A stretch of 64,000 nucleotides of DNA from an uncultured Gammaproteobacteria bacterium (lineage in GTDB: Bacteria; Pseudomonadota; Gammaproteobacteria; Steroidobacterales; Woeseiaceae). Shown one piece after another: positions 2,042-5,193 of this stretch. The first letter of the stretch is position 1. Each line of letters starts with the position of its first letter. The notes under the pieces are model-generated. The model had not been told where the DNA came from and made no database searches. It saw only the letters and a list, made by a program, of their open reading frames with translations. The stretch covers positions 1 through 64,000 of the forward strand of contig CALBPI010000002.1 of the NCBI GenBank assembly GCA_937899415.1. Direction: 5' to 3'. The translations under genes were made by a program, and so were the position numbers.

Positions 2042-2767
2042 GTGCTCGACGCAGTCCGCATCGTGCTTGTAGGCACGACGCACCCCGGAAATATCGGCGC
2101 CACCGCGCGCGCCATGATGAATATGTCCTTGTCGGACCTCGCGCTTGTGCGCCCGCGTACGTTTCCGAGTTCTGAGGCCGTGGCCCGTGCGTCGGGTGCG
2201 ACGGGGATTCTCGACAATGCGAGTGTGCACGAGACGCTGGCTGATGCGGTTGCAGACTGCAGCTTCGTCGTCGGCACGAGCGCCCGACAGCGCAGCATCG
2301 CCTGGCCGCAACTCACGCCGCGGGAGGCGACGCAGGAGGTGTTGTCGCGGACAGACGCAGGTCGCGTCGCTATCGTGTTTGGCCCCGAAAAGACAGGCCT
2401 TGGTAACGAGGACATGGATCTGTGCAGTTCACTGGTCGTCATTCCCACGACGACCTTCAGCTCGCTGAATCTCGCGATGGCTGTGCAGGTCATCGCCTAC
2501 GAGCTGTTCCTGGCCACGGATCCGGAACCACGTCTGCAGGACCCCGAGTCCCCGCCGGCGACTGCCGAAGAGATGGCGCATTTCTACGACCACCTGGAGC
2601 GGCTGTCGCTGGAGTCGGGCTTTCTGAACCCCGAGAATCCGCGTTACCTCATGCGCCGCGTACGGCGGCTGTTCAACCGGGCTGAGCCCGATCGCAATGA
2701 GGTCAATATCCTGCGCGGCATTCTGGCGGCGCTCGAGTCCAAACGCTGGCGCGGAGGGGAGCGCTGA
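2042..2767 (+). CDS. trmJ: tRNA (cytidine/uridine-2'-O-)-methyltransferase TrmJ
   Basis: SPOUT-class enzyme that 2'-O-methylates position 32 of the tRNA anticodon loop using S-adenosylmethionine. 241 residues (E. coli 246). The N-terminus (IVLVGTTHPGNIGATARAM) and the SAM-binding knot motifs (FGPEKTGLGNEDMD; SSLNLAMAVQVIAYEL) are intact. It starts at GTG with GGAG 8 bases upstream. A -10-like TAGAAT at 2001-2006 may drive trmJ and the iron-sulfur genes; I could not find a -35 for it. The stop codon overlaps the ATG of the following desulfurase. In E. coli trmJ also precedes the isc operon, but iscR is absent here. Confidence 0.93.
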   Translation: MLDAVRIVLVGTTHPGNIGATARAMMNMSLSDLALVRPRTFPSSEAVARASGATGILDNASVHETLADAVADCSFVVGTSARQRSIAWPQLTPREATQEVLSRTDAGRVAIVFGPEKTGLGNEDMDLCSSLVVIPTTTFSSLNLAMAVQVIAYELFLATDPEPRLQDPESPPATAEEMAHFYDHLERLSLESGFLNPENPRYLMRRVRRLFNRAEPDRNEVNILRGILAALESKRWRGGER

Positions 2768-3948
2768 TGTTCGGGCTCGCGCCAGTCGATGCGATCTACA
2801 TGGATTACGCGGCCACCACGCCCGTGGCGCCCGAGGTCATGGCGACGATGCAGGCGGCCCTGGCTGATTTCGGCAACCCGTCTTCAAGCCACGCCTGGGG
2901 GGCACAAGCGGACGCGCATGTTGAGGCGGCCGCGGCTGCACTGGGCGCGGCATTGGGCGTCGCGTCCGACACGCTGGTCTGGACCTCGGGTGCGACCGAG
3001 TCGGACAACCTCGCCATTATGGGCGCAGCACGGTACCGCGCGGCGCGGGGCAAGCATGTCATCACGAGCCGCACCGAACACAAGGCGGTCATTGACGCCT
3101 GCAAGCAGCTCGAACGTGAGGGCTTCGAGGTCACCTGGCTGACGCCGGAGGCGGATGGCCGCGTCACACCGGGGGCGCTTGCAGCCGCCTTGCGCGATGA
3201 CACGGTGCTCGTCTCGCTGATGTGGGTGAACAACGAAATTGGCACGATCAACGACATTCCCGCTCTGGCCGCCGTCGTGGCCGAGCACGATGCGTTGTTC
3301 CACGTCGACGCCGCGCAGGCGTTCGGGAAGGTGCCCGTGGCGCCCGCCGAGCTGGCCATTGATCTCATGTCCGTGACGGCACACAAGTGCTACGGGCCGA
3401 AGGGCATCGGAGCGCTCTACGTGGCGCCGCGCCACGGTGTGCAGTTCGAGCCCCTGTTGTTCGGTGGCGGACAGCAGGGCGGACGCCGCCCGGGCACGCT
3501 GCCCGTGCACCAGATCGCGGGATTTGGCCGCGCCGCGGCGCTCGTCAGCGAACAGCTTGAGGCTGACCGGGTGCGTCTCGATGCGCTGGGCCGGGACCTC
3601 GCTGCGCGTGTGTTGGCTGTGCCGGGCGTCGTGCTGAATGGCTCCGCGACCGAGCGCCTGCAGAGCATCGTCAACGTGTCGATCGAAGGCGTGGCCGGGG
3701 AGGCCCTGGTGGCCGCCATGCAACCGATCGCGCTCGCAACCGGATCGGCCTGCAATTCACGCGACGTGGCGCCTTCGTTCGTGCTGCGTGCCCTGGGACG
3801 GGACGATGTGCTCGCAGGCGCGTCGCTGCGCTTCTCTCTGGGGCGCTCGTCGACGCCCGAGGACGTCGACACGGCTGCGACACGCTTTGAGGCTGCCGTC
3901 ACACGACTGCGCGACATGGCCGGCGATCTGGCCCGGGTGTTGCCTTGA
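2767..3948 (+). CDS. Cysteine desulfurase, IscS/NifS family
   Basis: PLP enzyme that takes sulfur from cysteine as a protein persulfide for Fe-S clusters and tRNA thiolation. 393 residues; E. coli IscS is 404. Key residues align one position from E. coli: H105 (TEHKAVID), K207 for PLP (VTAHKCYGPKG) and C329 for the persulfide (ATGSACNS). The N-terminus (IYMDYAATTPV) is typical. It overlaps trmJ by one base and the next gene by four, so translation is probably coupled. The cluster is trmJ, this gene, an IscU-like gene and an IscA-type gene; iscR, hscBA and fdx are missing. The residues favour an active IscS-type desulfurase, but its delivery partners cannot be told from sequence. Confidence 0.9.
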   Translation: MFGLAPVDAIYMDYAATTPVAPEVMATMQAALADFGNPSSSHAWGAQADAHVEAAAAALGAALGVASDTLVWTSGATESDNLAIMGAARYRAARGKHVITSRTEHKAVIDACKQLEREGFEVTWLTPEADGRVTPGALAAALRDDTVLVSLMWVNNEIGTINDIPALAAVVAEHDALFHVDAAQAFGKVPVAPAELAIDLMSVTAHKCYGPKGIGALYVAPRHGVQFEPLLFGGGQQGGRRPGTLPVHQIAGFGRAAALVSEQLEADRVRLDALGRDLAARVLAVPGVVLNGSATERLQSIVNVSIEGVAGEALVAAMQPIALATGSACNSRDVAPSFVLRALGRDDVLAGASLRFSLGRSSTPEDVDTAATRFEAAVTRLRDMAGDLARVLP

Positions 3949-4292
3949 ATCCTGCGGAGTTGCGCACATCTTTACTGGAGGCGCCCAGGCACTATGGGTC
4001 CGCGATCCCGGGTACGTTTACCGGCGCTTCCGGCAGTGTTGCCCGGGCATGTGCGGTACAATTCTCCGCAACGGTCGGCGCTGACGGGCTTCGGGACATC
4101 CGATACCTCGTCTTCGGCGGCCCCGACGCCATCGCGGCCTGCGAGTACGTGGCCCGACGGGCGCTGGAAACAACAGCCGTCGGGTCGGCGCAGGACTGGC
4201 TCGAGGCTCTGGCTTTATCGCGCGACGCGCTGTCGACCTTGCTGGTCGTCGAGGACGCGTGGCGTGCCCTGGTCGCGGCGGCGACTCCATAA
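3945..4292 (+). CDS. IscU/NifU-N-like protein lacking two of three cluster cysteines
   Basis: 115 residues with the size and layout of the IscU scaffold. It has the YGSA/GSVARACAVQF stretch matching the first ligand loop of IscU, the LRDIRYLVFGGPDAIAACEYVA stretch split as LRDIRYLVFGG and PDAIAACEYVA (second loop), and ALSTLLVVEDAWRALVA matching the third. Cys is kept at the first ligand (C36). It is replaced at the second (FGGP where IscU has YGCG) and the third (STLL where IscU has HCSI). The TTG start overlaps the desulfurase stop codon (TTGA). It sits between the desulfurase and the IscA-type gene, exactly where iscU is found. It may be a regulatory or delivery partner of the desulfurase rather than a scaffold. 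Confidence 0.75.
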   Translation: MNPAELRTSLLEAPRHYGSAIPGTFTGASGSVARACAVQFSATVGADGLRDIRYLVFGGPDAIAACEYVARRALETTAVGSAQDWLEALALSRDALSTLLVVEDAWRALVAAATP

Positions 4293-4310: not shown

Positions 4311-4643
4311 ATGGCGGTTTCGCTTTCTGACAATGCAGCGGCACGGGTGCGCAGCTTCCTCGACAAGCGGGGCGGTGGGGTTGGTCTGCGGCTGGGTGTT
4401 CGCAAGTCCGGCTGCAACGGTTGGGCCTACGTCATCGACTACGCGGACGTCGTCGAGGCCAACGACGCGGTGTTCGAGCAGGACGGTCTGAAAGTGCTCG
4501 TCGACCGCGACAGCCTGCCCATGCTCGACGGCACCCAGGTGGATTTCGTCAAGGACGGCCTCAACGAGGTCTTCCGCTTCGTGAACCCCAACGTGGCCGG
4601 CGAATGCGGCTGCGGTGAGAGCTTCAACGTCGACGGCGACTGA
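4311..4643 (+). CDS. A-type iron-sulfur cluster assembly protein (IscA-type)
   Basis: 110-residue A-type carrier that binds Fe or an Fe-S cluster and passes clusters to target enzymes. The three ligand cysteines are present as C35 (RKSGCNGW), C99 and C101 (GECGCGES), the same numbering as E. coli IscA. It starts at ATG 18 bases after the IscU-like stop codon, so it is probably in the same transcript. ErpA and SufA share this motif; synteny favours IscA. Confidence 0.9.
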
Positions 4644-4761: not shown

Positions 4762-5193
4762 ATGGCCATCGAGACCACCCTTTCCATCATCAAGCCCGAC
4801 GGCGTGCAGAAAAACCTCATCGGCGAGATCTACGGCCGCTTCGAGAAGGCTGGCCTTGAGATCGTGGCGGCACGCATGATGCAGCTGACGCAAGAGCAGG
4901 CCGAAGGCTTTTACGCGGTTCACAAAGAGCGCCCGTTCTTTGCCGACCTCGTGAGCTACATGATGTCGGGCCCCGTGATCGTGCAGGCGCTTCATGGTGA
5001 GAACGCTGTTGCCGTCAACCGTGACCTCATGGGCGCCACCAACCCGGCTGACGCTGAAGCAGGCACGATTCGCGCAGACTTCGCCGACAGCATCGAAGAG
5101 AACATCGTGCACGGCTCGGACGCGACGGAAACCGCGGCCGTTGAAGTCGCGTTCTTCTTCCCTGAAGGCATCAGTGAGCGCACGCGCGGCTGA
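4762..5193 (+). CDS. ndk: Nucleoside diphosphate kinase
   Basis: Transfers the gamma phosphate of ATP to NDPs and dNDPs through a phosphohistidine. 143 residues, the usual length. The catalytic histidine is H117 in [11 protein letters not shown], with the nucleotide-site stretches ERPFF, ATNPADA and GTIRADF. The ATG follows AGAGGAAA at good spacing. Its 3' end overlaps the rlmN start by 20 bases, and ndk-rlmN adjacency is conserved in Gammaproteobacteria. Confidence 0.97.

Follow-up and report, generated by a model that had tools for sequence, protein, structure and literature searches.

A ligand-less IscU-derived protein next to IscS in a Woeseiaceae genome and its relatives as putative non-scaffold partners of the desulfurase

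IscU is the protein on which bacteria normally assemble iron-sulfur clusters, and its two roles, binding of the cysteine desulfurase IscS and holding of the cluster, are hard to separate. In E. coli, hscBA-fdx-iscX come after iscA, and the LPPVK segment of IscU is the motif for HscA. SufE shares the IscU fold, while SufU is an IscU-type desulfurase partner in the SUF system. The exchange K103E abolishes the binding of E. coli IscU to IscS, C328 of IscS has been seen disulfide-linked to C37 of IscU in Azotobacter or to C63 in E. coli, and D39 of IscU is situated between the three ligand cysteines (PMC2854127, partial text). Most bacteria carry one cluster-building system, mainly SUF (PMC11559095, partial text). 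ISC and SUF tend toward mutual exclusion in Gammaproteobacteria, and IscU was dropped as a marker, clear monophyletic groups being wanting (PMC10631705, partial text). Mycobacterium tuberculosis is a SUF organism that keeps IscS, its isc operon being truncated to iscS; unlike this single-gene operon (PMC10848736, partial text), the locus described here retains an altered iscU and iscA together with iscS.

The window, that is, the whole stretch of 64,000 nucleotides analysed here, comprises positions 1 to 64,000 of the forward strand of contig CALBPI010000002.1 (assembly GCA_937899415.1) from an uncultured Gammaproteobacteria bacterium of the order Steroidobacterales and the family Woeseiaceae. 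The gene of interest, termed X, and its surroundings are listed below; order sequences are those from Steroidobacterales.

2042..2767, forward strand: gene that we take to be TrmJ-like, 5' of iscS, within the conserved neighbourhood
2767..3948, forward strand: IscS-type cysteine desulfurase by family search, catalytic residues retained
3945..4292, forward strand: X, IscU-derived protein with 0/3 cluster ligands, 115 aa, TTG start
4050..4052, forward strand: codon of C36, aligned to D39 of IscU and not to C37
4119..4121, forward strand: codon of Gly59 (GGC), C63 position, Cys in 104/107 order sequences
4125..4127, forward strand: codon of Asp61 (GAC), a position with His in 86/107 and Asp in 6/107 order sequences
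4227..4229, forward strand: codon of Ala95, K103 position of IscU
4311..4643, forward strand: gene of an IscA-type carrier protein by family search, 3/3 cysteines retained
4762..5193, forward strand: presumably an Ndk-like gene, immediately after iscA

The sequence-only reading had described an intact IscU-like frame coupled to a desulfurase gene, and this picture of the locus holds. The frame is real and open throughout, overlaps the desulfurase gene by the four bases TTGA, adjoins iscS and precedes iscA as expected for iscU, and reads FGGP (residues 57-60) and STLL (97-100) at the second and third ligand motifs. The family search identified both neighbours clearly (Aminotran_5, 9e-73, for the desulfurase; Fe-S_biosyn, 2e-19, for the IscA-type protein). 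As had been read earlier, the desulfurase appears to be active, judged from its catalytic Lys and His and its loop Cys, and the protein encoded after X carries all three IscA cysteines. The same three IscS residues were retained in 101/101 aligned rows of the relatives' loci (rows L148-L177 lay outside that check).

Taken by itself, X is hardly recognizable as an IscU. It scored 15.1 bits against NifU_N, below the cut-off of 22, an NCBIfam search with it returned nothing at E <= 1, and a sequence search of the PDB gave only four weak, unrelated chains. The AlphaFold model, obtained from an alignment of two sequences (the window copy and L032), was weak (pLDDT 45, pTM 0.27), and a PDB search with it had no match at E <= 0.001, IscU being absent from the 50 matches listed. 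Given that its own scores lie below the cut-offs, the kinship of X with IscU is supported by its family and by gene order. The window copy matched A2, a profile of its relatives, with E = 4.0e-11; this profile matched IscU structures of the E. coli type in the PDB (best E = 2e-12), and at E <= 0.1 all 27 A2 relatives matched NifU_N (best 2.1e-11) as well as the IscU model TIGR01999 (best 2.9e-9). The homology extends to the C-terminal EDAWRAL stretch. The named IscU, NifU and SufU models fail to describe the 27 relatives, whereas the general NifU_N does: the equivalog-type cut-offs of the IscU and NifU models lie at about 190 bits, and against the 192.4 bits of TIGR01999 one A2 member reached 29.1 and two f16 genomes 81.0 and 78.7. 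The best E value of the relatives was 3.9e-10 with the named NifU model, and with that for SufU 9/27 gave E <= 0.1 (best 5.5e-4). As judged from these family comparisons, X is a descendant of IscU and not a lone oddity.

With IscU (TIGR01999, PF01592) X thus shares homology through the family over near full length, a gene position between iscS and iscA and the C-terminal ED motif. It differs in its ligands. The earlier claim that C36 is the remaining first ligand has to be corrected, as C36 falls into the D39 slot, two residues past that of C37, in the MAFFT alignment, along the profile route that links the window copy with IscU by way of A2, and in the large alignment. In the latter, the slots of C37, C63 and C106 are occupied by R34, G59 and T98. 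By register, therefore, all three ligands are missing from the window copy; its second cysteine is C66. In addition, LSRDA stands in place of LPPVK. At the second site, GCPH is found in most order relatives, and the window copy reads GGPD; the other two of the 107 distinct order sequences without this Cys are L115 and L121, and the Cys is present in all other rows read from the window's own family. A frameshift as the cause of FGGP was ruled out on reading the sequence: AIAAC and EDAW, the family stretches on either side, share one frame.

The losses in the window copy are part of a wider pattern. Altered IscU-like proteins were compared in 141 distinct copies, obtained from 171 domain rows that were reduced to 156 by near-duplicate removal and became 157 with E. 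coli IscU, after which 12 canonical rows (E. coli included) and the truncated rows L105, L122, L147 and L167 were left out (L147 and L167 being cut-off canonical IscU). C37 was present in none of the 141, C63 in 113 and C106 in 12, and 25 had no ligand at all; most relatives thus retain just one of the three ligands. The copies without C63 (28, from 20 families) had none of the three ligands in 25 cases. K or R occupied position 103 in 111/113 copies with C63 versus 7/28 copies without it. This fits a putative C63-K103 sulfur-transfer unit that was lost jointly. On 6 independent pairs, the coupling fell short of significance (median p 0.25), and this test is weak because the poor quick tree behind it was a search artefact. 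A third-ligand Cys (in HC, NC or AC) together with C63, and without C37, was seen within the order in L092, L096, L126 and L107, and the same state occurred in five rows outside it (L150, L154, L160, L161, L171). Such copies are possibly intermediate stages of loss.

Within the window's family, 29/61 genomes matched at E <= 0.01, and iscS, X, iscA and ndk were found together in 28/30 listed loci, the window included, as well as in L032 from a Steroidobacteraceae MAG; L026 and L031 showed no X in the order iscS-X-iscA-ndk. Across Steroidobacterales, the A2 profile matched 271/296 genomes and 67/68 genera. Reading of sequences covered 60 genomes from 56 genera, with an X domain in 60/60, and further searched loci, the remaining matches being counted by profile alone, so that some weak ones could be SufU. 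Nine genomes of family f12 (G071, G084, G095, G106, G115, G122, G128, G137, G142) gave no match to the X profile. Canonical IscU exceeded its cut-off in 2/296 order genomes, G117 and G123, both of which also matched A2. Their loci (L144 and L145) encode a canonical three-cysteine IscU, with no HscA above cut-off and no iscS in the 4.4 kb around it.

At the class level, 93/185 genomes matched A2 at 1e-6, many of them scoring like the canonical IscU row L139 and most of them unread. Outside the order, 35 more altered IscU-like proteins were collected, 25 of them without C63, from loci chosen mainly for odd scores; they show recurrence and not frequency. Profile A4, made for altered IscU forms, was tried as a discriminator and failed to separate altered from canonical IscU, and it is for this reason that odd scores guided the choice of rows from other orders, whose counts give no prevalence. 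A literature search gave no altered IscU proteins of the X type in titles and abstract openings; the main phylogenomic survey may note them.

The association with the desulfurase is close. In order loci, iscS lay immediately 5' of X in 93/106 and was fused to it in 12/106, and L110 had no iscS in the stretch read. Among the 35 copies from outside the order, iscS was immediately 5' in 28 and fused in 2, and five had no iscS directly upstream. In total, 14/141 loci encode an X-IscS fusion, three of which lack C63 (L121, L165, L176). Two genomes of one genus also hold TrmJ, IscS and X domains in one open frame (L119:20-2416, 799 aa; L122:2-2365, 788 aa, cut at the contig side), an apparent triple fusion as far as the frames can be read.

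The X-bearing genomes tested mostly have another system for cluster assembly. HscA was above its cut-off in 0/296 order genomes, that of the window included, while the E. coli control was above it. Among 19 X-bearing genomes, none had HscA and 17 had SufB above cut-off; in G415, SufB is in two pieces below cut-off, and G339 (81% complete) has no SufB. Canonical-IscU controls were few and mixed, with HscA and no SufB in G398 and neither above cut-off in G334 (86% complete). In the window genome, contig C28 carries SufB together with an IscR-like gene, sufC, sufD, sufS, a SufU with three cysteines and sufT, all except SufB read by eye from translations, and a NifU_N search of this genome found SufU alone. 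With SufB and a three-cysteine SufU in the genome, the lack of any other scaffold, which the sequence-only reading had named as part of a possible refutation, does not apply. A SufE-family protein is encoded at C84:55742-56101 (L127/L129), so that with SufU two other likely desulfurase partners exist in the genome.

X itself differs from both SufE and SufU. The relatives would be analogous to SufE (PF02657) as one-cysteine partners of a desulfurase, but PF02657 was matched neither by the window X (E <= 1) nor by the 27 relatives (E <= 0.1), SufE is represented in the window genome by a separate protein, and the window X lacks C63. Like SufU, X is an IscU-type protein; in contrast to it, X has no ligand cysteines, lacks the SufU insert in an alignment with the genome's own SufU, and is found in a genome whose three-cysteine SufU is encoded separately, beside sufS.

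The reading that we favour on balance, although by no wide measure of confidence, is that the family represents IscU turned into a non-scaffold partner of IscS, acting as a sulfur acceptor in most members and as a docking or regulatory subunit in the window copy. X would then be the iscU of an isc operon that has shrunk to iscS-X-iscA in a host with SUF, and its scaffold role would have been lost along with the ligands. Most relatives, which retain one cysteine (C63) together with a lysine (K103), are predicted to dock on IscS; in the manner of SufE with SufS, they would most likely accept the persulfide sulfur of the IscS loop and pass it to another acceptor. The window copy, if it works, would be a subunit without ligands that docks on or regulates IscS, shaping the activity of the enzyme or its choice of partner. 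A non-scaffold desulfurase partner had already been proposed from the sequence, and for the family this is the best-supported part of that proposal, given the near or complete absence of canonical IscU and HscA from the 296 order genomes searched, the presence of SUF where tested, the position of X beside or fused to IscS and the retention of just one ligand in most relatives. The sulfur relay named with it fits the relatives that have C63 and K103 and does not extend to the window copy, where both are lost; since the neighbouring His is gone as well, the latter cannot work as a one-cysteine acceptor of that kind. For the window copy docking or regulation is likeliest, followed by decay and then by an acceptor relocated to C36, and the replacement of K103 by Ala95 speaks against docking there.

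More tentatively, we suggest that where SUF replaced ISC in gammaproteobacteria, IscU may repeatedly have become a C63/K103 acceptor and then, many times, a ligand-less, IscS-regulating pseudo-scaffold, sometimes fused to IscS, of which the window X would be an endpoint. The removal of the cluster site with retention of the partner gene recurs in many lineages and is graded, from the third ligand with C63, over C63 only, to no ligand and to fusion with IscS. If X proteins still bind IscS, they would be separation-of-function forms that show effects of IscU on the desulfurase beyond scaffolding, and they would also show a role of the leftover IscS in SUF bacteria. Found beside or fused to IscS in many bacteria with another cluster-building system, the relatives offer a route to non-scaffold roles of IscU.

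The most serious rival, which we regard as unlikely but well worth weighing, is that the window copy is decaying: SUF would have taken over, selection on X would have ended, and the frame would survive because the loss is recent or through its overlap and co-translation with iscS. The window X retains only 14/29 of the positions with a conservation of at least 90% in the family, while each of 45 relatives, left out in turn, retains at least 79%, and the genome's own IscS is much better preserved (103/122). Four residues of the VPVEKTGR stretch (P, K, G and R) are among the losses in X, as are the Cys at C63, the His two residues further along and the second Cys. The TTG start points in the same direction, as does codon usage: GC by codon position is 0.69/0.58/0.75, and the periodicity is clear in the last two thirds of the gene and absent from the first third. 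Poor conservation and partial periodicity are therefore what makes relaxed selection a serious rival, the genomes searched having all come from outside the window's genus. However, the 115 codons are open and homologous through to the C-terminal EDAWRAL, and copies without C63 are intact in 20 families, with three of them fused to IscS, which favours a working subunit.

Alternatively, the acceptor thiol may have moved, with C36 in the D39 slot replacing C63 as the persulfide acceptor and X remaining a sulfur relay, which we consider improbable. The location of D39 between the three ligand cysteines (PMC2854127, partial text) would suit such a shift, and positions 39-42 hold a Cys in 8/28 copies without C63 versus 3/113 copies with it (Fisher p 1e-4). 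This stretch was, however, one of six tried post hoc, and the 8 copies stem from 5/20 families, so that the p-value is inflated by relatedness. K103 is lost in the window copy, and L115, which lacks C63, has no Cys anywhere. That X is still an iron-sulfur scaffold with other ligands (C36, C66, Asp61, His16) is highly improbable. By alignment, these two Cys, one Asp and one His do fall within the former site or close to it; against this, all three ligand positions are lost, HscA is above cut-off in 0/296 order genomes, and SufB and SufU are encoded in the same genome.

In a tree of IscS with 108 tips (IQ-TREE LG+G4, 150 iterations, stopped short of convergence, long row L118 omitted), the C63 state of X changes at least 13 times, compared to a mean of 22.8 with shuffled labels, and these changes are taken as losses because canonical IscU has C63. 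Pairs that differ in C63 joined at well-supported nodes in four cases: L115/L107 (99), L158/L135 (99), L166/L160 (100) and L176/L071 (98). The window IscS groups with its 17 family tips, all of which bear C63, and the next larger node (27 tips) has a support of 98. Horizontal transfer of iscS-X-iscA into the window genome had come into consideration, as in quick trees the window IscS joined L146 (98) and the window IscA was nearest to L081 (95). It was rejected for IscS by the AU test, which favours the window inside its own family by 137 log units, in agreement with the fuller search that gave the tree of 108 tips; the placement of IscA is that of the quick tree only. The window Ndk was nearest to the window's own family in a quick tree, with no starred set.

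Apart from the ligand positions, two columns of the A2 profile, the Glu of E62 and the second Cys, C65, lie 8 and 11 residues past the C63 position. Both are invariant in 27 family members, and in the order sequences they are found in 58/107 and 50/107, respectively.
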